NCBI GenBank assembly: GCA_035714365.1
Contig: DASTMB010000073.1
Span: forward strand, 1 to 63,128
Origin: Mycobacteriales bacterium
GTDB lineage: Bacteria > Actinomycetota > Actinomycetes > BP-191
Direction of reading: 5' to 3'
Length of the DNA stretch: 63,128 nt
Shown here: positions 7,383 through 60,152 of the stretch, piece after piece
How positions within the stretch are numbered: the stretch's first letter is position 1
Layout of the letters: each line of letters opens with the position of its first letter
Notes under the pieces: model-generated
Seen by the model: only the letters and a program-made list of their open reading frames with translations
Databases searched by the model: none
What the model was told of the DNA's origin: nothing
Program-made: the position numbers and the translations under genes

Positions 7383-8723
7383 CTAGGCGGTCAGCGCCGC
7401 GGACTCCTGCGCCCGCCACCACTCCTGCCCCGACTCGGGCAGCGTCGGGATCGGGTCGTAGTACTCGTAGCGGCGGGTCAGCGCGTCCGGGTCGTCGCGC
7501 TCGATGCCGGTGCGGTAGTTCTTGGTCCAGTACGAGATGCCGCGCTCGCGGTCGTACTCGGCGACCTGGTGCACCCAGCGCTTGCCGACGTACGGCACGT
7601 CGCAGACGATCCGCGGCGTCGCGAAGCCCGGCAGGTAGCCCATCACCGCGTGCTGGAGGTCCTGCGCCTGCGCGACCGACACCCGCCAGTGCTCGCTGTT
7701 CGGGATCAGGTCGCACATGTAGAAGTAGTACGGCATGACCTTGGCGTGGTCGAGCAGCGTGAAGCAGAGGTCGAGCAGCGCGTCCGGGGTGGCGTTGACG
7801 CCGCGGAGCAGCACGCCCTGGTTGCGCACGTCGCGCACGCCGGCCTCGAGCAGCCGCTTCGCGGCCCGGGCGACGAGCGGCGTGACCGACCGCGCGTGGT
7901 TGACGTGGGTGTGCACGGCGAGGTCGACGTCGTGGTCGAACGCCTTGCGCGCCAGGCGTTCCATGCCGGCGACGACATCGTCCTGGAGCCAGTGCTGGGG
8001 CAGGCCCATCAGCCCCTTCGACGCGAGCCGGATATCGCGGACGTTGGGGATCTCGATGAGGGCGGCGACGAACGCCTCGAGCTGGTGGAACGGCAGGTTC
8101 GCGACGTCGCCGCCGGACACGACGACGTCGCGCACCTCGGGGTGGTCGCGCAGGTAGCCGAGCATCTCGCGGTGCCGGTCCTGCGGCTTCGCCGCGAACT
8201 TCAGCTTCGCGACCTGGGGGACGGAGTTGCCGACGAGGTCCATGCGGGTGCAGTGGCCGCAGTACTGCGGGCAGGTGGGCACCATCTCGGCGAGCACCTT
8301 GGTGGGGTAGCGGTGGGTGAGCCCCTCGACGGTCCACATCTCGTGCTCGTGCAGCGAGTCGCGGGTCGCGCGCGGGTGCGACGGCCACTCGGCGTCGCGG
8401 TCGGAGAACGCCGGGACCATGTAGCGGCGGACCGGGTCGGCGTAGAGGTCGCTCTCGTCCATCGTGTTGAGCATCTGCGGCGGGACGAGGATCGACATGG
8501 TCGCCCGGTCGGCCTGGTCCCGCTCGATGTCGGCCAGCAACGCGTCCGGGACGAGGTCGCCGAAGACGTTCTTGAGCTGGGCGAGGTTCTTGACGCAGTG
8601 GGCGCGCTGCCACTGCGCGGACTCCCACTCCTCGCGGGTCACGTCGCGGAAGCCGGGCAGCCGCCGCCAGTCCGGCTCGGCGAACTCACGAGCCACGGGG
8701 TACTGGAAGGGCTGCGCCGTCAT
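7383..8723 (-). CDS. kamA: Lysine 2,3-aminomutase (KamA family radical SAM enzyme)
   Basis: 446 residues from the Met of MTAQPFQYP. The radical-SAM cluster motif is C151-PQY-C155-GH-C158, followed by RMDLVGNS; GGDVANLP and RLASKGLMGLP are barrel strands; DVPYVGKRW carries a candidate PLP-binding lysine. KamA interconverts L-lysine and L-beta-lysine, the first step of lysine fermentation. It is divergent from kdd, with 74 bp between starts, and the enzymes for the next steps are adjacent, which argues for lysine rather than another substrate. It could be misread as a peptide-modifying radical SAM enzyme because of the adjacent peptide genes, but it has no SPASM domain and fits KamA throughout. 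Confidence 0.9.
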   Translation of the reverse strand: MTAQPFQYPVAREFAEPDWRRLPGFRDVTREEWESAQWQRAHCVKNLAQLKNVFGDLVPDALLADIERDQADRATMSILVPPQMLNTMDESDLYADPVRRYMVPAFSDRDAEWPSHPRATRDSLHEHEMWTVEGLTHRYPTKVLAEMVPTCPQYCGHCTRMDLVGNSVPQVAKLKFAAKPQDRHREMLGYLRDHPEVRDVVVSGGDVANLPFHQLEAFVAALIEIPNVRDIRLASKGLMGLPQHWLQDDVVAGMERLARKAFDHDVDLAVHTHVNHARSVTPLVARAAKRLLEAGVRDVRNQGVLLRGVNATPDALLDLCFTLLDHAKVMPYYFYMCDLIPNSEHWRVSVAQAQDLQHAVMGYLPGFATPRIVCDVPYVGKRWVHQVAEYDRERGISYWTKNYRTGIERDDPDALTRRYEYYDPIPTLPESGQEWWRAQESAALTA

Positions 8724-24725: not shown

Positions 24726-27700
24726 TCAGGCGAGGCGGCGGCGGGCGAGCGGGGCGCCGGCCGCGACCAGGGCCAGGCCGAGCAGCAGCAACGCCGCCCA
24801 GTCGCCGCCGGTGACCGGCAGGCCACCGCCGGAGCCGCCGTCGCCGCCGGAGCCGAAGCCGCCCGAGCCGACGTCCGGGTCGCCGCCGCCACCGGTGACC
24901 GGCGGGGTGTCGCCGCCACCGCCACCGCCGCCGTCGACCGGCGGCTTCGGGGCCGCGGCGACGGAGACGGCGACGTGCCCGACGGCGGTGCCGCCGTGGC
25001 CGTCGGAGACGGTGTAGGAGAACGAGTCGTTGCCGCTGTAGGCCTTGTCCGCCGTGTACGTGCAGGTCGTGGCGGTGCAGGTCACGGTGCCGTGGGCGCC
25101 GTTCGTCCACGACGAGACGGCGAGGGTGTCGCCGTCGGCGTCGGCGTCGTTGGTGATCACCGTGACGGTGACCTTCTTGCCGCCGACGACGGAGACGGTC
25201 TCCGGCAGCACGAGCGGCGCGTCGTTGACCGGCGTCACGGTGACCGTGGCGACGGCGGTGGCCACCCCCCCGGCGCCGTCGGAGATCGTGTACGTGAACG
25301 CGTCGGTGCCGTTGAAGTTCGGCTCCGGCGTGTAGAGGCAGCCGGTGGCGTCGCAGGTCACGGTGCCGTGCAGCGGGTCGACGATCACGGTGATCGCGAG
25401 CGGGTCGGCGTCGACGTCGACGTCGTTGCCGAGCACGTCGACGGTCACCGGCGTGTCCTCGGGCGTCGCGACGGCGTCATCGGCGGCGACCGGCACGTCG
25501 TTGACGGCCGTCACGGTGACCGTGACCAGCGCGGTGGCGAGGCCGCCGTTGCCGTCGGAGACGGTGTACGAGTAGGTGTCGGTGCCGTTGAAGTCCGCGT
25601 CCGGCGTGTACGTACACACGCTCGCGGTGCAGGTCACGGTGCCGTGGGCGCCCTGCGTCCAGGCGCTGACCGCGAGCAGGTCGAGATCGACGTCGGTGTC
25701 GTTGAGGAGCACGGCGGTGTCGACGGTGCCGTCCTCGGCGACCGTGTCGGTGTCCGGCCCGGCGACGGGGGCGTCGTTGTCGCCGACGACGGTGAGGGTC
25801 ACGGTGGCGGTGGCCACTCCCCCGTTGCCGTCGGAGATCGTGTACGTGAACGAGTCGGGGCCGTTGTAGTCGGCGCCGGGCGTGTACGTGCAACCGGTCG
25901 CGTCGCAGGCGACGGTGCCGTGCATGCCGTCGCTCCACGCCGTGATCGTGAGCACGTCGCCGTCGACGGCGGAGTCGACGTCGGTGTCGTTGGCCAGCAC
26001 GTCGACGAGGACCGGGTTGTCCTCGAGCGTGCTCGCCGAGTCGTCCGGGGCGACCGGCGCGTCGTTGACCGCGGTCACCGTGATGGTCACCGTCGCCGTG
26101 GCGGTGCCGCCGTTGCCGTCGGAGACGGTGTAGGCGAACGCGTCGGGGCCGTGGTAGTTCGCGTCCGGCGTGTACGTACAGGACCCGGCGGAGCAGGTGA
26201 CGACGCCGTGCGCGGGCGTGCTCCAGGAGACGACCGTGAGGACGTCGCCCTCGGTGTCGGTGTCGTTGCCGGTGACCGGGAACGTCGTCGGCGTGTCCTC
26301 GGCGGTCGTCACGGCGTCGCCGGCCGCGACCGGCGCGTCGTTGACCGCGGTCACCGTGACGGTCACGGTCGCCGTGGCGGTGCCGCCGGCGCCGTCGGAG
26401 ATCGTGTACGTGAACGAGTCGGGGCCGTTGTAGTCCGCCGCCGGGGTGTACGTGCACGAGACGGGCGAGCAGATCACCGTGCCGTGCGCCGGCTGGGTGG
26501 CCGACGCGATCGACAGCGGGTCGCCGTCGACGTCGGTGTCGTTGCCGCGGACCGTGATCAGCACCGAGCCGTCCTCGGCGACGGTCGCGGTGTCGGCGTT
26601 GGCGACCGGCGCGTCGTTGACCGCGGTCACGGTGATCGACACGGTCGCGGTGGCGGTGCCGCCGGCGCCGTCGGAGATCGTGTACGTGAACGAGTCGCTG
26701 CCGTTGAAGTCCGGCCCCGGCGTGTACGTACAAGTCGTGGCGCCGCAGGTCACGGTGCCGGCCGCGGCCGGGGTGTGCGCGACGACGCTGAGCGCGTTGC
26801 CCTCGATGTCGGTGTCGTTGCCGGTGACGGCGACGAGGATCGCGGTGTCCTCGGGCGTGGAGCGCGGGTCGTCGACGGCGACCGGGGCGTCGTTGACCGG
26901 GGTCACGGTCATGGTGACGGTCGCGGTGGCGGTGCCGCCGTTGCCGTCGGAGACCGTGTAGGTCCACGAGTCCGGGCCGAAGTAGTTCGCGTCCGGCGTG
27001 TACGTACACGCGGTCGCGGTGCAGGTCACCGTGCCGTGGGCCGGCTGGGTGAACGCCGTGATCGTGAGCGGGTCGCCGTCGACGTCGCTGTCGTTGTTGC
27101 GCAGCGCCGTCATGGTCAGCGGCGCGTCCTCGGCGGTGGTGCGGGAGTCGTTGCCGGCGACCGGGGCGTCGTTGACCGGCGTGACCGTGACCGTCACGAC
27201 CGCGGTGTCGGTGCCGCCGGACCCGTCGGAGATCGTGTAGGTGAAGGTGTCGGTGCCGTTGGCGTTCGGGTTCGGCGTGTAGGTGCACGCGGTCGCGGTG
27301 CAGGAGACGGTGCCGAACGTGCCGTTGGTGTGACCGGTGACCGTCAGCGTGTCGAGGTCGACGTCGGTGTCGTTCTGGAGCACCGCGACGTTGACTGGCG
27401 TGTCCTCCGCGGTGGTCTTGGTGTCGTCGCCGGCGACCGGCGGGGTGTTCGCGGCCGGGCCGCCGACGGTGATCGTCAGCGTCGTGTCGGCGCTGCCGCC
27501 GTTGCCGTCGGAGACGCGGATCACGACCGTGTACGTGCCCGGCGCGTCGGCCGTGCCCGTGAAGGCGCCCGCGCTCGTCAACGTCACGCCGGTAGGCAGC
27601 GTGCCGCTCACGAGTGCGTACGTCAGGGGGTCGTTCTCCACGTCGCTCGCCGACAGCGACTGCAGCGCGCTGCCGACCGGGACGGTCTGCGACGTGTTCC

Positions 27701-30700
27701 GGGAGGCCGCGGTGTAGGCCGGCGGGTCGTTCACCGCGGTGACCGTGATGGACACGGTGGCGGTGTCGGTGCCGCCGGAGCCGTCGGCGATCGTGTACGT
27801 GAACGAGTCGGAGCCGTTGAAGTTGGCCCCCGGCGTGTACGTACAGGCGGTGGTGGTGCAGGTGACCGAGCCGAAGCTCGCCGCGCCGTGGCCGGTGACG
27901 GTCAGCGTGTCGAGGTCGACGTCGGTGTCGTTGCCGGTGACGCCCACGTTGACGGGCGTGTCCTCGGCGGTGGTCGCCGTGTCGTTGGCCGCGTCCGGCG
28001 GGGTGTTCGCCGTCGGGCCGCCGACCTGGATGGACAGGGTCGTGGTGGCGGTGCCGCCGTTGCCGTCGGAGACCCGGATCTGCGCCGAGTAGGCGCCGGG
28101 GGCGTTCGCGGTGCCGGTGAACGCGCCGCCGGACGTGAGCGTGATCCCGGGCGGCAGGCTCCCGCCGATCAGGCTGTACGTCAGGGGGTCGAGGTCGGCG
28201 TCGGTCGCGGCCAGGCTGGACAGGCTCGCCCCGACCGGGACGGTCTGCGCCGTGTTGGTCGTCGCCGCCGTGTAGACCGGCGGGTCGTTGACCGGCGTGA
28301 CCGTGACCGTGACGGTGGCGGTCGCCGTGGCGAGGCCGTCGGACACGGTGTAGGTGAAGGTGTCGGTGCCGTTGGCGTTCGGCGCCGGCGTGTACGTACA
28401 GGTCGTGCCGGTGCAGGAGACGGTCCCGAACGCGCCGTTGGTCTTCGCGGTGATCGTCAGGGTGTCGCCGTCGACGTCGGTGTCGTTGCCGAGCACGGGG
28501 ACCGCGACGGCGTTGTCCTCCAGCGTGGTGGCGGTGTCGTTGGCCGGGGCCGGCGGGGTGTTGGCGGTCGGGCCGCCCACCTGGATGGTCAGGTCGGTGT
28601 TGGCCGACCCGCCGTTGCCGTCGCTGACCTTGATCTTGACCGGGTAGGTCCCGTGCGGGCTCGCACCGCCGCTGAAGGAACCGTCCGGGTTGAGCGTGAC
28701 CGTCGGCGGCAGCGCGCCGTTGACGATCGAGTACGTGAGCGGGTCGCCGTCGACGTCGGTGGCGGCGAGGCTCGACAGGGTGCCACCCACGGGGACGGTC
28801 TGGGACGTGTTGGTCGCGGCGGCCGTGTAGACCGGCGCGTCGTTGACCGGGGTGATCGTGACGGTCACGGTCGCCGTGGCGGTCGCGCCGTCGGGGTCGC
28901 TGATCGTGTACGTGAACGTGTCGGTGCCGTTCGCGTTGGCGCTCGGCGTGTACGTACAGGTGCTGGTGGTGCAGGACACCGTGCCCCGGGTCCCGTTGGT
29001 CTTCGCCGTGATCGAGATGGCGTCGCCGTCGGGGTCGGAGTCGTTCGACAGGACGGAGACCGTGGTCGCCGCGTCCTCGGCAGTCGTCTTGGTGTCGTTC
29101 ACCGCGACCGGCGGCAGGTTCCGGTAGCGCATCCCGAAGTCGATCCCGGTCACCCGCTCGTCGGCAGCGAGGGTGATCGTGCGCGGGCTGCTGGTGGTGA
29201 ACACGTACTTGGTGGGCGGGCTCACCGACACGGCGTAGGTGCCCGCGACCAGCCCGACGAACGCATACGTCCCGTCGGCGGCAGTGGTCGTGGTGCGGGT
29301 GACCGGCCCGGTGGCGGTCACGGTGCGGCCGGCCAGCGCCGGCTCCCCCGCGTCCCGCGTGCCGTCCGCGTCCAGGTCGTCCCAGACCGTGCCGGCGATG
29401 CCGGAGTTGTCCACGGCGGTGACGTCCTGGGCGGTGTTGTTCGTGCCGGCCGGGTCGCTGCTCGCACTCGACACGGTGGCGGTGTTGGTGACGCTCGCGG
29501 CCGTGGTGGCGGTGACGTCGACCTGGATCACGAGCTGGGAGGAGGCGCCGCTGGCGAGCGGCGTGCTCCGCGTGCAGGAGACGACCTGGCCGGCTGCCGA
29601 GCAGACCCAGCCGCTGCCCGAGGCGGCGACGTAGGTGAGCCCGGCCGGCAGGGTGTCGGTGACGGTCGTCGGGGGGTTCGCCGGGCTCGGCCCGGCATTG
29701 GTGACGGTGAGCAGGTAGCTCCCCGTCGTGCCCGCGGTGAACGAGCCGATGTGCGTCTTGGTCAGCCCCAGGTCGGCAGAGGAGTCGACCGTCGTGCTCG
29801 CCGTGGCGGCGTTGTTGCCCCCGACCGGGTCGGCGGCGGTGGTCGTGGCGGTCGCGGTGGCCGTGAGCGTCCCTCCGGACGCGGTCACGTCGGCAGTCAC
29901 CGTGATCGCCGGTGCGGCCCCCGTCGGCAGCGGGGTGGCGCGGGTGCAGGTCACCGTGGACCCGGTCGTGCAGGACCAGCCCGTGCCGGTCGCGCTCGTC
30001 ACCGTCAGGCCGCTCGGCAGGGGCAGCGTGACGGTGGTGGCAGGCGCGGCGTCGGGGCCGTTGTTGGTGGTCGAGATCGTGTACGTGAGCGTGGTGCCGG
30101 CCAGCACCGGGTCCGGGCTGTCGGCGATCGACACGGCCAGGTCGGCCGTGAGGACGTCGGTGGACTCGGTGGCCGTGACCGGCGCGAACGCGTTCCCGAT
30201 CATGTCGGTGTAGGTCACGGTGGCGTTGTGCGTGAGCGTGCCGGACGCGGTGCCGGAGACCGTCGTGGTGATCTTGACGGCGGCGCTCGCGCCCGCGTCG
30301 AGCTCGCTGGTCAGGGTGGCCGTGACGACGCCCGCGGACTGCGTGCAGGTGCCGGTCGCCGGGGCCACGATCGAGCAGGAGGCGAACGTCTCCTCCGCCG
30401 GGACCGTGTCCTTGAGGACCACGTTGCGGGCGGTGCCCGCGGTCGCGCCGGAGGAGGCGTTGGTGATCGTGAACGTCGTCTGCCGGGTGGCCCCGCGGGT
30501 CACGGTCGTGAGCCCGTCGGTGGCGCTCGCGGCGAGGCTCGGCGTGGGCGGCTGGTCGAGGTACGCGGTCACGCCGGCGCGGCCCTCGGGCACGAACTCG
30601 TTGCCGCTCGGGGCGCAGTAGACCTCGCGCCACCAGCCGCTCTCCGGCGACGCGATGACGTCGCCGCCGCGGGCCGTCGTGGCGCTGTTGTTCCAGGTCA

Positions 30701-31598
30701 GGGCACCACTGACGGTCCCGGGGGTGCCCCCCGTGGTGGCCGTCGCGTCGTAGGCGTCGGACGGCGCGTAGTACCGCACGCGGCCGCCGCCCATGCCGAA
30801 GTTGTTGAGCGTCATCGACGCAAGGCCGGGGGCCGCGTACTCGAACAGCGTGAGGCACGCGGTGCCGCCCGAGTTCTGCTGGACGGCGGCCTGGGTGAGC
30901 CCCGCCACGATCTCGTCGCCGGTGCCCGGCGTGGAGTCGTAGTCGTCGCTGTTCGCGGGCGGGGTGTTGCCGGTGTTCGTGTCGTTGTCGGTGCCGACGC
31001 GCAGCAGCCAGTGGTTGCGGTCGTCGGTGCCGCCGAGCGGGTTGAACGGGTCGCCGCCGAGGATCGCGGAGCGCAGGACGTACCGGCCGCAGGTCAGCGC
31101 CGGGTCGGCGCCGGGACCGAGGATCTGGGTGAAGCTCTCCCAGTCCGGGGCGGACGTCGTCGGCTGGTACGAGAACCGGTAGCCGGCGATGCCGGTGCCC
31201 GGTGCCGGGCTGGTGAAGCCGGGGCCCACGCTCGCACCGGGGCCGTACAGCTCGAACTCCACCGAGTCGGCGGCACCGGTGACGGTGTCGCGGCTCCCGG
31301 CCGCCGTCGAGATCCGGGGACTGAAGATGTCGACGTAGATCGGCTGGTTGGCGGGCCAACCGCACGGGATGTCGAACGTCGCGTAGTGCGAGCCGCCGCC
31401 ACCCCCCGACGCCGTCGGCGCCGTGTACCAGTCACCGGCGGCGAGGCCGGTGGTCGAGCCGTTGGTGACCACGAAGAACGCGCTGCTCGCCGGGATCAGG
31501 TCGACCGCCCCCGCCGGCGGGGCCGGCAGCGCCGCCACCGTCAGGGCAGCCGCCAGCACGGCAGCGCGCCGAGGCGCCCGCGTGCTGGGGAGGCGCAC
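24726..31598 (-). CDS. Giant LPXTG-anchored surface protein with Ig/cadherin-like repeats
   Basis: 2290 residues from a GTG with GGAGAA upstream. Order: signal peptide (AAVLAAALTVAALPAPPAGA); a secreted domain to about 340; two DUF11-type domains (ADLAVSIADSPDPVLAGT..., ADLGLTKTHIGSFTAG...); an SdrB-like domain (GTVWDDLDADGTRDAGEP); then about residues 830-2205 with twelve repeats of the Big/VCBS type (TTAEDTPV, NDTDVDGDPLTI, SFTYTISDGNGG, VTPVNDAPV). After repeats 1-3 comes a putative Ig (He_PIG) domain each. Every repeat has a close Cys pair (pattern VTCTATxCTYTP). A Gly/Pro tail leads to LPVTG (from L2260), a membrane helix and RRR. It should be exported, folded with Ca2+ or disulfides, and linked to the wall by a sortase: an adhesin or matrix protein. 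Confidence 0.93.
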   Translation of the reverse strand: MRLPSTRAPRRAAVLAAALTVAALPAPPAGAVDLIPASSAFFVVTNGSTTGLAAGDWYTAPTASGGGGGSHYATFDIPCGWPANQPIYVDIFSPRISTAAGSRDTVTGAADSVEFELYGPGASVGPGFTSPAPGTGIAGYRFSYQPTTSAPDWESFTQILGPGADPALTCGRYVLRSAILGGDPFNPLGGTDDRNHWLLRVGTDNDTNTGNTPPANSDDYDSTPGTGDEIVAGLTQAAVQQNSGGTACLTLFEYAAPGLASMTLNNFGMGGGRVRYYAPSDAYDATATTGGTPGTVSGALTWNNSATTARGGDVIASPESGWWREVYCAPSGNEFVPEGRAGVTAYLDQPPTPSLAASATDGLTTVTRGATRQTTFTITNASSGATAGTARNVVLKDTVPAEETFASCSIVAPATGTCTQSAGVVTATLTSELDAGASAAVKITTTVSGTASGTLTHNATVTYTDMIGNAFAPVTATESTDVLTADLAVSIADSPDPVLAGTTLTYTISTTNNGPDAAPATTVTLPLPSGLTVTSATGTGWSCTTGSTVTCTRATPLPTGAAPAITVTADVTASGGTLTATATATTTAADPVGGNNAATASTTVDSSADLGLTKTHIGSFTAGTTGSYLLTVTNAGPSPANPPTTVTDTLPAGLTYVAASGSGWVCSAAGQVVSCTRSTPLASGASSQLVIQVDVTATTAASVTNTATVSSASSDPAGTNNTAQDVTAVDNSGIAGTVWDDLDADGTRDAGEPALAGRTVTATGPVTRTTTTAADGTYAFVGLVAGTYAVSVSPPTKYVFTTSSPRTITLAADERVTGIDFGMRYRNLPPVAVNDTKTTAEDAATTVSVLSNDSDPDGDAISITAKTNGTRGTVSCTTSTCTYTPSANANGTDTFTYTISDPDGATATATVTVTITPVNDAPVYTAAATNTSQTVPVGGTLSSLAATDVDGDPLTYSIVNGALPPTVTLNPDGSFSGGASPHGTYPVKIKVSDGNGGSANTDLTIQVGGPTANTPPAPANDTATTLEDNAVAVPVLGNDTDVDGDTLTITAKTNGAFGTVSCTGTTCTYTPAPNANGTDTFTYTVSDGLATATATVTVTVTPVNDPPVYTAATTNTAQTVPVGASLSSLAATDADLDPLTYSLIGGSLPPGITLTSGGAFTGTANAPGAYSAQIRVSDGNGGTATTTLSIQVGGPTANTPPDAANDTATTAEDTPVNVGVTGNDTDVDLDTLTVTGHGAASFGSVTCTTTACTYTPGANFNGSDSFTYTIADGSGGTDTATVSITVTAVNDPPAYTAASRNTSQTVPVGSALQSLSASDVENDPLTYALVSGTLPTGVTLTSAGAFTGTADAPGTYTVVIRVSDGNGGSADTTLTITVGGPAANTPPVAGDDTKTTAEDTPVNVAVLQNDTDVDLDTLTVTGHTNGTFGTVSCTATACTYTPNPNANGTDTFTYTISDGSGGTDTAVVTVTVTPVNDAPVAGNDSRTTAEDAPLTMTALRNNDSDVDGDPLTITAFTQPAHGTVTCTATACTYTPDANYFGPDSWTYTVSDGNGGTATATVTMTVTPVNDAPVAVDDPRSTPEDTAILVAVTGNDTDIEGNALSVVAHTPAAAGTVTCGATTCTYTPGPDFNGSDSFTYTISDGAGGTATATVSITVTAVNDAPVANADTATVAEDGSVLITVRGNDTDVDGDPLSIASATQPAHGTVICSPVSCTYTPAADYNGPDSFTYTISDGAGGTATATVTVTVTAVNDAPVAAGDAVTTAEDTPTTFPVTGNDTDTEGDVLTVVSWSTPAHGVVTCSAGSCTYTPDANYHGPDAFAYTVSDGNGGTATATVTITVTAVNDAPVAPDDSASTLEDNPVLVDVLANDTDVDSAVDGDVLTITAWSDGMHGTVACDATGCTYTPGADYNGPDSFTYTISDGNGGVATATVTLTVVGDNDAPVAGPDTDTVAEDGTVDTAVLLNDTDVDLDLLAVSAWTQGAHGTVTCTASVCTYTPDADFNGTDTYSYTVSDGNGGLATALVTVTVTAVNDVPVAADDAVATPEDTPVTVDVLGNDVDVDADPLAITVIVDPLHGTVTCDATGCLYTPEPNFNGTDAFTYTISDGAGGVATAVATVTVTPVNDAPLVLPETVSVVGGKKVTVTVITNDADADGDTLAVSSWTNGAHGTVTCTATTCTYTADKAYSGNDSFSYTVSDGHGGTAVGHVAVSVAAAPKPPVDGGGGGGGDTPPVTGGGGDPDVGSGGFGSGGDGGSGGGLPVTGGDWAALLLLGLALVAAGAPLARRRLA
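24980..29110 (-). repeat. Tandem coding repeat: twelve Ig/cadherin-like units
   Basis: About 4.1 kb inside the surface-protein gene, made of roughly 270-bp units, three of which alternate with an extra domain (near 27460-27720, 28000-28270 and 28550-28840). The unit-to-unit nucleotide similarity is visible by eye (GTGTACGTACA and CCGTTGCCGTCGGAGAC recur on the plus strand), so expansion by recombination is likely and assembly here could be wrong in copy number. Confidence 0.85.
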
Positions 31599-33407: not shown

Positions 33408-33481
33408 GGCCGGTACCCGGTCCCGCGCCTAAAGGGAGCGCCGCGCAGCGGCGCGGAATCTAGCGGGACCGGGTACCGGCC
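33408..33481. repeat. 74-nt nested-hairpin element, copy A
   Basis: Outer arms of 19 nt (33408-33426 and 33463-33481) are perfect complements. Inside is CTAAAGGGA, then an inner stem (GCGCCGC and GCGGCGC) and GGAATCTAG. It lies between the convergent DUF5999 and gcvP genes. A second copy at 59522-59595 keeps the CTAAAGGGAGCGCCG and CGGCGCGGAATCTAGCGGGAC blocks while the outer arms change sequence but still pair. It may be a bidirectional terminator, a mobile palindromic repeat, or a structured RNA end. Confidence 0.75.
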
Positions 33482-33502: not shown

Positions 33503-36361
<2,859 letters not shown>

Positions 36362-51621: not shown

Positions 51622-52443
51622 TTACGCGTGGTCGGCGAGGTCGTCGAGGTTGACCGGGAGGAGCGGCGCGAGGTTCGGCAGCTCCTCCATGCTCCGGATG
51701 CCCAGGCGCTGGAGGAAGTACGGCGTGGTGACGTACAGGTGCGCGCCGCTCGGCCCCTCCTCCCCCGCCTCCGCGATCAGCCCGCGGGCGAGCAGCGTGC
51801 GGACGACGCCGTCGACGTTGACGCCGCGGATCGCGGCGACCGACTGCCGGCTGACGGGCTGGCGGTACGCGATCACGGCCAGCGTCTCGAGTGCTGCCTG
51901 CGTCAGGCGGGCCTGCTGGCCTTCGAGCACGAAGCGTTCGATGTACGGCGCGCAGTCGGGGGCGGTGTAGAGCCGCCAGCCGCCGGCGACCTGGCGCAGC
52001 TCGAAGCCGCGGCCGTCCCGGGCGTACTCCTCGGCGAGGTCCTCCAGCGCGGCGAGCACCGTCGTCCGCGGCGCCTCGACCACCTGGGCCAGGTCGACCT
52101 CCGGCACCGGCTCGTCCACGACCAGCAGGATCGCCTCGAGGATCCGCCGCAACGGCGGCAACGGCTCGTCGCGCGGCTCCGTACCGCCGTGGTGGGGGTC
52201 GATCTCGGCGCGCGCCGCCGCGGCCTCGTCCTCGCCCGCCTCGGCGGGCGGCGCGGGCGGCGCGGGCGGCGCGGCGTCGCCGGCAGGCGCGGCGGCCGGG
52301 TCGGTGACGTCGCCAGAACCGGCCGGACCCGCGGCGGCGTCCGCGCGGGCGATGGCGGCATCCGTTATGTCAACCACATCCTCGCCGCCGGGTACCTCCG
52401 GTACCCCCTCGAACGGCGCGCCGGGCAGCTCGTCGTCAGGCAT
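51622..52443 (-). CDS. scpB: Segregation and condensation protein B
   Basis: 273 residues. About 95 residues of Ala/Pro/Glu-rich head are followed by the two winged helices of ScpB (LRRILEAILLVVDEPVPEVDLAQ, GRGFELRQVAGGWRLYT, LSQ-like LTQAALETLAVIAYRQPVSRQSVAAIRGVNVDGVVRTLLARGLI). It works with ScpA and SMC in chromosome condensation. It overlaps scpA by 8 nt. Confidence 0.93.
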   Translation of the reverse strand: MPDDELPGAPFEGVPEVPGGEDVVDITDAAIARADAAAGPAGSGDVTDPAAAPAGDAAPPAPPAPPAEAGEDEAAAARAEIDPHHGGTEPRDEPLPPLRRILEAILLVVDEPVPEVDLAQVVEAPRTTVLAALEDLAEEYARDGRGFELRQVAGGWRLYTAPDCAPYIERFVLEGQQARLTQAALETLAVIAYRQPVSRQSVAAIRGVNVDGVVRTLLARGLIAEAGEEGPSGAHLYVTTPYFLQRLGIRSMEELPNLAPLLPVNLDDLADHA

Positions 52444-58131: not shown

Positions 58132-59439
58132 GTGCGCACTCGTGTGCTCGCGGCAGGTGGAGTGGCCCTCGCCGCCGCCATCGCCGCCACCCTCTCCGGT
58201 GGCACCGCCACCGCCGCCGGCTTCTCGGCCCCCGTGGTCGTCAGCTCGCTCAACGCGAGCGAGCCGGGCATCGACGCCGCCCCCGACGGCACCCTCTACA
58301 TCAACGCCCCCCTCGGCATCGGCTCCAGCCTCCCGACCTCGCCGAGCGTCGTCTGGCGCTCGACCAACGGCGGCGCCACCTGGACGCAGACGCCGTTCGG
58401 GCTGCGCGCGGCCGCCCCCGGCGGCGGCGACTCCGACATCTCGGTCGCGCCCGACAACACGCTGTCGTGGACCGACCTGTGGCTGGGCAGCTCGACCGTC
58501 GGCAAGTCCACCGACCAGGCGCAGACCTGGCTGGTCAACCCGCTCCAGGGCACGTACGCCCAGGACCGCCAGTGGGTCGCCGGTGTCGGCGGCAACGTCG
58601 TCTACCACGTGACGCACCAGATCCCCACCGGCATCACGGTGGCGCGTTCGGTCGACGGCGGCGTCACCTACCCGACGCAGACCATCGCCGCGACGCCGCT
58701 CGACCAGACCGGCTGCGTCTGCCCGGCGGGCACGCTGATCGCCGAGGCCGGCACGCCGGTCGTCGCGGGCCAGCAGGCCAGCAGCGTCACCGACAAGGTC
58801 GGCGTCATCTACTACACGTCCTCCGGCGGCATCAAGTTCGCCAAGTCCACCAACAGCGGCTCGTCGTGGACCAACGTCAACGTCAAGCCGGCCAGCAGCG
58901 CCGACACCGGCCGCGCGTTCCCGGTCGTCGCGAACGCCGGCAACGGCGTCCTCGTCGCCGCCTGGCAGGAGGTCAACGGCTCGTCCAGCACGGTCGCGTA
59001 CAGCGTCTCGACCAACTGGGGCTCGACCTGGAAGGCGCCGGTGACGATCGTCAGCGGCGGCTCCTCGGTCTTCCCGTGGATCGACGCGCGCGGCTCGAAG
59101 GTGTCGGTGTCGGTGTTCCACACCACCGCCAGCGGCCTGCCGGACAACGTCGCCAACTCCGCGTCGTGGTTCGAGACCTACCTCGAGGGCACGATCACGC
59201 TGAGCGGCACCGCCCCGAACATCACCGCCACCACGGCGTGGGGCGCGCTCCAGACGGCCGACACCACCGCGGTGAAGACCGGCCCGATCTGCACCAACGG
59301 TCTCGACTGCTCCGGCGACCGCGAGCTCGGTGACTTCCAGGCCGTCGCGATCGACCGCAACGGCATGGCGAACCTCACCTACGCCCGCAGCATCAACGGC
59401 GCCAGCGACACCGAGATCCGCTTCGTCAAGCAGATCTAG
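58132..59439 (+). CDS. Secreted sialidase-like beta-propeller protein
   Basis: 435 residues from a GTG with AAAGGAG upstream. Signal peptide LAAGGVALAAAIAATLSGGTATAA. The rest is a beta-propeller with four Asp-box-like turns (STNGGATW, SVDGGVTY, STNSGSSW, STNWGSTW). The arginine triad and Tyr/Glu pair of true sialidases are not evident, so enzyme activity is uncertain. A Cys pair (GCVC) and another (CTNGLDC) are probably disulfides. Divergent from ald. Confidence 0.8.
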   Translation: MRTRVLAAGGVALAAAIAATLSGGTATAAGFSAPVVVSSLNASEPGIDAAPDGTLYINAPLGIGSSLPTSPSVVWRSTNGGATWTQTPFGLRAAAPGGGDSDISVAPDNTLSWTDLWLGSSTVGKSTDQAQTWLVNPLQGTYAQDRQWVAGVGGNVVYHVTHQIPTGITVARSVDGGVTYPTQTIAATPLDQTGCVCPAGTLIAEAGTPVVAGQQASSVTDKVGVIYYTSSGGIKFAKSTNSGSSWTNVNVKPASSADTGRAFPVVANAGNGVLVAAWQEVNGSSSTVAYSVSTNWGSTWKAPVTIVSGGSSVFPWIDARGSKVSVSVFHTTASGLPDNVANSASWFETYLEGTITLSGTAPNITATTAWGALQTADTTAVKTGPICTNGLDCSGDRELGDFQAVAIDRNGMANLTYARSINGASDTEIRFVKQI

Positions 59440-59521
59440 CAGACAGACAACGGAGGCCGGGCGCTCGATGCGCCCGGCCTTCGTCATGTCCAGGGTGGGG
59501 TGAGCGGAGTGCCGTGGGCGG

Positions 59522-59595
59522 GGCCGGACGGGTCCCGCGGCTAAAGGGAGCGCCGGGCAGAGCCCGGCGCGGAATCTAGCGGGACGCGTCCGGCC
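59522..59595. repeat. 74-nt nested-hairpin element, copy B
   Basis: Outer arms of 17 nt (59522-59538 and 59579-59595, one mismatch), inner stem GCGCCGGGC/GCCCGGCGC, and the same CTAAAGGGA and GGAATCTAG internal strands as copy A. It too lies between convergent genes, here the propeller protein and the NUDIX gene. Confidence 0.75.
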
Positions 59596-59609: not shown

Positions 59610-60152
59610 TCAGATACCCAGACGACGCGCGGCGGCGAGGACGCCGAGCGCGCACATGGCGTTCGTGATCGTGCCGTCGAACACCCACTCGCACGCGTCG
59701 CGCAGCGGCACCCACCGCACCTCGAGGTCCTGCTCCTCGTCGACGACGTCCGGACGTTCCGCCGCCTCGGTGACGCCGGAGGCGAGGTAGACCTCGTAGC
59801 GCTCGTCCGAGCCGCCGGGTGTCGCGTACACGGAGCAGAGGGGCTCCACCGTCTCGGCGACGTAGCCGGTCTCCTCGTGCAGCTCGCGCTTCGCGGTCTC
59901 GGCGGGGTCCTCGCCGTCGACGTCGCGGATGCCGGCCGGCACCTCCCACAGCGCCGCGCCGACGGCGTGGCGGTACTGCTTGATGAGCAGGACGTTGCGG
60001 TCGGCGTCGATGGCGACGGCACCGACCGCGCCGGGGTGCTCCACGACGTCGCGCGGGGCGCTGCTGCCGTCGGGCATCCGGACGGTGTCGGTGCGGACGC
60101 TGATGATCTTGCCGGAGAAGCGTTGCTCCGACTTCAGGACCTCGTACGTCAC
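59610..60152 (-). CDS. NUDIX hydrolase, ADP-ribose pyrophosphatase type
   Basis: 180 residues from a GTG overlapping the pyrG stop by 4 nt. The NUDIX box is [18 protein letters not shown], preceded by [10 protein letters not shown] and [12 protein letters not shown]. The WEVPAG and [22 protein letters not shown] pieces are typical for ADP-ribose pyrophosphatases. It follows pyrG here, as in other actinobacteria. Confidence 0.92.

Follow-up and report, generated by a model that had tools for sequence, protein, structure and literature searches.

Two hairpins in the window (the whole stretch of 63,128 nucleotides analysed here), copy A at positions 33408-33481 and copy B at 59522-59595, belong to a genus-specific, interspersed and strand-specific hairpin family that probably works as a folded single strand of DNA, much as REP sequences do. 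We put the probability of this reading, which comes from comparing sequences, at roughly 55%. A REP-like folded DNA strand would fit the data better than a transcript end.

Results

Both copies are 74 nt long, as the sequence-only reading had stated, and they do have internal strands in common: CTAAAGGGA (at 33429 and 59541) and GGAATCTAG (at 33455 and 59571), each found once per copy. Neither string has another match in the window, the chance expectation being 0.01-0.02 matches, and both copies fold much more stably, on each strand, than shuffled sequence does (z of -5 to -7 as RNA and about -6.3 as DNA). In copy A, read on the forward strand, a 19-nt left outer arm (33408..33426) pairs with the right outer arm (33463..33481), and between them lie the 5' side of an internal loop (33427..33437, GCCTAAAGGGA; family consensus GACTAAAGGGA), an inner hairpin (33438..33454) with a 7-bp stem and a GCA triloop at 33445-33447 (C-GCA-G), and the 3' side of the internal loop (33455..33462, GGAATCTA). 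Copy B, also on the forward strand, has a 17-nt left outer arm with one G.G mismatch (59522..59538), a right outer arm (59579..59595), internal loop sides at 59539..59549 (GGCTAAAGGGA) and 59571..59578 (GGAATCTA), and an inner hairpin (59550..59570) with a 9-bp stem and an AGA triloop, one of four family loops outside the DNA-stable set described below.

Convergent flanking genes had been proposed for both copies, and they are present at both loci. A small DUF5999 gene (PF19462; 33174..33365, forward strand) converges on copy A with gcvP (glycine cleavage P-protein; 33503..36361, reverse strand), which adjoins the element and whose best named relatives are 67-74% identical. Copy B lies between a forward-strand gene (58162-59439) and a reverse-strand NUDIX gene (59610-60152). 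The upstream gene of copy B has its own ordinary terminator-like hairpin, read directly at 59455..59484 on the forward strand (GGCCGGGCGC-TCGAT-GCGCCCGGCC-TTCGT) and separate from copy B. Two other features of the neighbourhood were recorded, both on the reverse strand: tandem glycine riboswitch aptamers (RF00504; 36403-36596) directly upstream of gcvP, which are ordinary, and a gene (24726-31559) whose 2,277-aa product, a large surface protein, carries DUF11 and SdrD B-like domains as well as about 15 repeats of the bacterial Ig/cadherin-like type.

The genome to which the window belongs (G000; an actinomycete, 3.8 Mb in 98 contigs) was compared with those of two sister species (G001 and G002). 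A pattern made of the two shared strings has 10 exact copies in G000 (none for the reversed control) and two in one sister species. A covariance model built from these 12 exact copies, together with a looser pattern, gave a wider family with at least about 62 places in G000, at least about 15 in G002 and at least 4 in G001, these copy numbers being lower bounds obtained by scoring the best 150 candidates per genome. The G000 tally comprises 62 model rows, three of which are antisense rows of listed places, plus three pattern-only places. Such a covariance-model search of the genome and its relatives had been suggested at the outset, with a lack of further copies named as the outcome that would speak against an element; many further copies were found. 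In a class-wide search of 297 genomes, the elements were confined to the three of the window's genus. The exact pattern of subtype T1' (see below) had no match in IMG/VR or in the genome contigs of GTDB, where the window's near relatives are possibly absent, and a literature search for the motif and for actinobacterial REP-like repeats returned nothing relevant.

The anatomy of the element was derived from 75 copies, each read individually. Its plan is an outer stem of 17-25 bp, an invariant bulged loop of the form 5'-GNCTAA.../...CTA(G), and a variable inner hairpin with a stem of 1-9 bp and a loop of 3 or 4 nt. The internal loop has a closing C-G pair, a 5' strand reading GNCTRA... and a 3' strand reading ...CTA(G). 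Subtypes are T1 (GACTAAAGGGA/GGAATCTA; 16 copies, A and B among them), T1' (GACTAAGGGA/GGAACTA; 34 copies, the commonest), T3 (GACTAAAGGA/GGGACTA; 9 copies) and T2 (GACTAAA/(C or A)CTA; 16 copies). One extra A-T pair sets T1 apart from T1', and a purine-rich 4x4 loop is present in three of the four subtypes. The internal loop may be drawn as a GAC bulge, a T-A pair, an A-T pair, an A.C mismatch and then purine mispairs.

Covariation, i.e. outer and inner stems that differ in sequence while keeping their pairing, had been claimed from two copies, and it is upheld with 12 and with 72. In the 12-copy alignment, 98.6% of cells pair, and the covariation score is 0.534 versus 0.104 for shuffled alignments (0/500) and at most 0.137 for slid controls. 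In a set of 72 copies, the first 20 outer pairs are intact in 96.6% of cases, compared with 58.3% ± 1.0 expected from the same columns, and three or four Watson-Crick pair types are in use at nearly every outer-stem position. By these statistics, the outer stem can take nearly any sequence provided that its arms pair. Copies with an identical inner hairpin do not have more similar outer arms (10.9 vs 10.6 identical positions of 20), which is odd for recent copy-and-paste unless the arms change very fast; either fast arm change or old spreading explains it. In the outer stem, G.T wobbles gather at two places counted from the internal loop, positions 10/11 and 19, which are separated by roughly one helical turn, and their polarity is fixed (T.G at 19 and mostly G.T at 11). 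This clustering suggests that the stem may hold a second recognised feature.

Several other repeat arrangements were seen. Contigs C12, C76, C80 and C87 start or stop within an element, and therefore the assembly breaks at the hairpin; the ends of C76 and C80 in G000 (L009 and L025) apparently carry the same element, with the TTGAGGGGGTCCCGC arm in common. At L119 (G000 C67:8076-8148 and 8160-8234), a T1' and a T3 element point the same way with about 12 nt between them, a tandem that recalls a BIME-style pair. G002 has a second palindrome family, TCGTGATCTTGG-NN-ACGTTCGTG...CACGAACGT-NN-CCAAGATCACGA, with at least 10 copies in 400 kb and a few covarying central arm positions (for example L175, C1:51767-51824 and 51858-51915; L178, C1:107691-107748 and 110042-110095; L188, C2:125431-125488). 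A third repeat family, whose arms GGTTACTGGTGAGTAGCGACG ... CGTCGCTACTCACCAGTAACC are separated by about 30 nt, has at least 6 copies in G002 (L188, C2:128350-128420; L190, C46:45227, 53494 and 54852; L186, C8:52190; L192, C53:48159) and G001 (L168, C63:103614).

On the forward strand, mismatches in the outer stem are far more often G.T than A.C (72 : 2) and G.G/G.A than C.C/C.T (48 : 5); copy by copy, their balance favours the forward strand in 61 and the reverse strand in 2 (p about 4e-16). The bias is alike in sense copies, '--' copies and copies between convergent genes, and in the antisense ('--') copies G.T to A.C stands at 22 : 0, with the forward strand favoured 23 : 1. Selection on the transcripts of the adjoining genes is not the cause of the bias, since 26 copies run antisense to the called genes on both sides. 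The mismatch statistics single out the strand reading GACTAA...CTAG as the one apparently selected to fold. The forward strand is also the better folder in 68/75 copies with DNA parameters and in 67/75 with RNA parameters. The latter figure counts against a single-stranded DNA reading, as do the G.U wobble and G.A pairs, which would suit RNA.

The apical loops fall into DNA-stable classes in 71/75 copies, versus about 6% of control hairpins: c(GNA)g in 56, g(GNA)c in 2, c(GNNA)g in 3, g(CNNG)c in 9 and c(GNAB)g in 1. Thus 58 of the 62 triloops are GNA (GCA, GAA, GTA or GGA), and all 13 tetraloops lie within cGNNAg, gCNNGc or cGNABg; one copy beyond the 75 has c(GAAT)g, also GNAB. Control hairpins from the same genomes have GNA triloops in 4/98 and DNA-set tetraloops in 8/88. 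RNA would be expected to prefer GNRA and UNCG tetraloops, and none of these occurs among the apical loops of the family, the three c(GNNA)g loops being GTCA, GTTA and GCCA. As the copies are related by descent, copy counts overstate independence, and the distinct tetraloop types, all in the DNA set (CTTG, CTCG, CTGG, CCTG, GTCA, GTTA, GCCA, GGAC and GAAT), are therefore more telling. At their shortest, the inner arms read exactly GCGCAGC and GCGAAGC. The d(GCGNAGC) minihairpins and stable DNA tetraloops, which these apical loops resemble, are known mainly from in vitro work, whereas here they cap the copies of an entire repeat family in a genome. In vitro selection for exceptional stability in DNA gave the loops d(cGNNAg), d(cGNABg), d(cCNNGg) and d(gCNNGc) (Nakano 2002, as cited in PMC2984261), and the published stable DNA loops also include GNA/GNNA minihairpins with at least two G-C pairs (Hirao and Yoshizawa, as cited in PMC4686876).

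These loops bear on whether the family might be a structured RNA, made from the forward strand in independent or read-through transcripts, whose internal loop would bind a protein or ligand. Such RNAs are classically recognised by covarying stems, G.U wobbles and a conserved internal loop, as seen here. However, the 26 '--' and 6 '-+' copies have no forward-strand upstream gene, no promoter-like block is conserved before the elements (the flanks are G-rich), the tetraloops are of the CNNG, GNAB or GNNA type, the last with a pyrimidine as its third base, and the GCGNAGC hairpins with two base pairs are the DNA minihairpin. Rfam thresholds were reached by no family, at copies A and B of the window included. 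We consider a structured RNA unlikely.

The Rfam search gave a weak reverse-strand match to RF02963, DUF3800-IV (27.8 bits, E 0.003; also 22.6 bits; gathering score 60.7), and generic hairpin families score similarly. DUF3800-IV likewise has a long variable outer stem and a short inner hairpin, but a true copy has a second inner hairpin and the family elements have one. DUF3800 genes (PF12686) were found only in G000 (2 genes; none in G001 or G002), and their 1.5-kb flanks are without an element. This identity was dropped, the match being weak and the architecture different.

Genes were called with a codon-usage script trained on the window, in place of a standard gene-finding program. The script overlooked at least one small gene, that for DUF5999, so that copy A is tallied as '--'. 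Among the 71 copies with both neighbours called, 22 are '++' (sense), 26 '--' (antisense), 6 '-+' and 17 convergent. The median distance from stop codon to element is 14-16 nt in both orientations, and in 41/48 same-direction gaps the element is closer to the stop than to the next start. This placement would suit intrinsic bidirectional terminators or 3'-end stabilisers that act in the RNA of the adjoining gene and have the loop in common by descent, as would the convergent intervals filled by a single element (7/7 and 6/5 nt) and the unrelated, ordinary 15-bp hairpin that stands in place of the element at the copy B site of G001. Yet gene orientation is random, the wobble bias tracks the element and not the gene, the loops are DNA-type rather than GNRA/UUCG, termination does not need an invariant internal loop, and a separate ordinary terminator already precedes copy B. 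A GC hairpin followed by a U-tract, sense to the gene, as in an intrinsic terminator, was not seen in the family, the U-tract being missing. We consider terminators or 3'-end stabilisers of this kind unlikely.

Orthologous gaps were sampled in G001 or G002 (n=13): 12 are without an element, and one has a decayed copy (G002 C1; core kept, right arm missing). Neither sister has an element at the site of copy A: G001 lacks one in the gcvP/DUF5999 gap, and G002 lacks one at the gcvP 3' end. By eye, no target duplication was seen in the empty-site comparisons. One orthologous site holds an element in both genomes (G000 C87:3-69 and G001 C63:41355-41427), with the same subtype and the same neighbour gene; the arms differ, each is complementary within its own copy, and G.T at position 11 is common to both. 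Therefore, arms can evolve in place with pairing kept.

Such compensatory evolution in place, together with random orientation and dispersal at about one per 60 kb, is what might be expected of fixed, non-mobile chromosomal sites (cruciform or single-stranded) bound by a nucleoid, segregation, replication or DNA-uptake housekeeping protein. GC skew, as a guide to the orientation of copies relative to replication, is near zero in most sister-species stretches, and its sign flips within the window. We regard fixed sites as quite improbable, as copy numbers differ widely between the sister species and orthologous sites are mostly empty. The idea that a core was inserted into pre-existing terminator hairpins was also dropped: the palindrome is missing at empty orthologous sites, the window has few long hairpins without a core, and two arm features, G.T at positions 10/11 and 19 and CCGGT at 6-10, keep a fixed register relative to the core.

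Discussion

The sequence-only reading had offered a transcript end or a REP/MITE-like element. The REP-like part gains from about 62 dispersed intergenic copies and empty orthologous sites. The transcript end is weakened by the occurrence of both orientations and the equal bias in antisense copies. The MITE-like part falls away: the ends of MITEs are usually conserved, whereas in this family conservation lies in the middle and the ends are variable. A MITE identity was rejected because the terminal inverted repeats (the outer arms) are the most variable part; no target duplication was evident either.

In REP/REPIN systems with TnpA-REP (RAYT), one strand is recognised as a folded single-stranded DNA hairpin with stem mismatches (PMC8266576). 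The present family is alike in consisting of short intergenic palindromes with, as the mismatch bias suggests from sequence rather than biochemistry, one folding and functional strand. It differs in that the conserved GTAG 5' of the hairpin is missing, with no conserved block outside the arms, and in that the arms vary, the loop region is conserved and the stem measures 17-25 bp. CTAG occurs within family elements, at the loop/stem border. The Y1 HUH transposase of RAYT/IS200 (PF01797) was found in 0/3 genomes, with controls matched in 5/14, and this lack of a single-stranded DNA transposase is a further point against the single-stranded DNA reading. RAYT/REP membership was dropped on this ground. 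As REP sequences without a transposase are suspected to result from gene loss (PMC6006769), the missing Y1 is compatible with, and does not exclude, a REP-like past; we do not claim REP membership. Reverse transcriptase (PF00078) is absent in G000 and G002, and a reverse-transcribed element was dropped too. In the profile search for PF04986 (IS91-like Y2), the control itself matched nowhere.

The subterminal hairpins of IS200/IS605 elements are similar in being single-stranded DNA hairpins with unpaired bases and structure-based recognition, but the family lacks a transposase and left/right end pairs, and its conserved part is on the apex side. Integron attC sites are likewise recognised as a folded single strand, with sequence-poor stems, unpaired bases, a variable terminal hairpin and a placement directly behind stop codons. 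However, attC sites have conserved outer R boxes and a fixed gene orientation, whereas the family has variable outer arms and random orientation.

If the family does work as folded DNA, we propose that: the hairpin would form when its strand is exposed, as lagging-strand template or during transfer or repair; the bulged loop might be recognised by a sequence-and-structure-specific single-stranded DNA-binding protein, nuclease or strand-transferase; this protein could copy or move the element; and purifying selection may spare the copies that lie at the 3' ends of genes, the palindrome there perhaps doubling as an auxiliary bidirectional terminator. It is possible, though we say so tentatively, that the family represents an undescribed class of element whose functional form is a folded DNA strand, like a natural DNA aptamer. 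In such an element, the arms would be free and the bulged recognition loop fixed, the caps would come from the known classes of ultra-stable DNA loops, and an enzyme belonging to neither the Y1/RAYT nor the reverse-transcriptase families would spread and maintain it.

Structural covariation is usually taken as proof of an RNA. Here it is joined by an orientation-independent strand bias and by a choice of loops that speak for a folded single strand of DNA. A single-stranded DNA origin of covariation can be separated from an RNA origin by the type of loop and the statistics of mismatches. If this is true, it would provide a sequence-only test for single-stranded DNA function, applicable to other 'structured RNA' motifs, and would indicate a single-stranded DNA-processing enzyme in the window's actinobacterial lineage.
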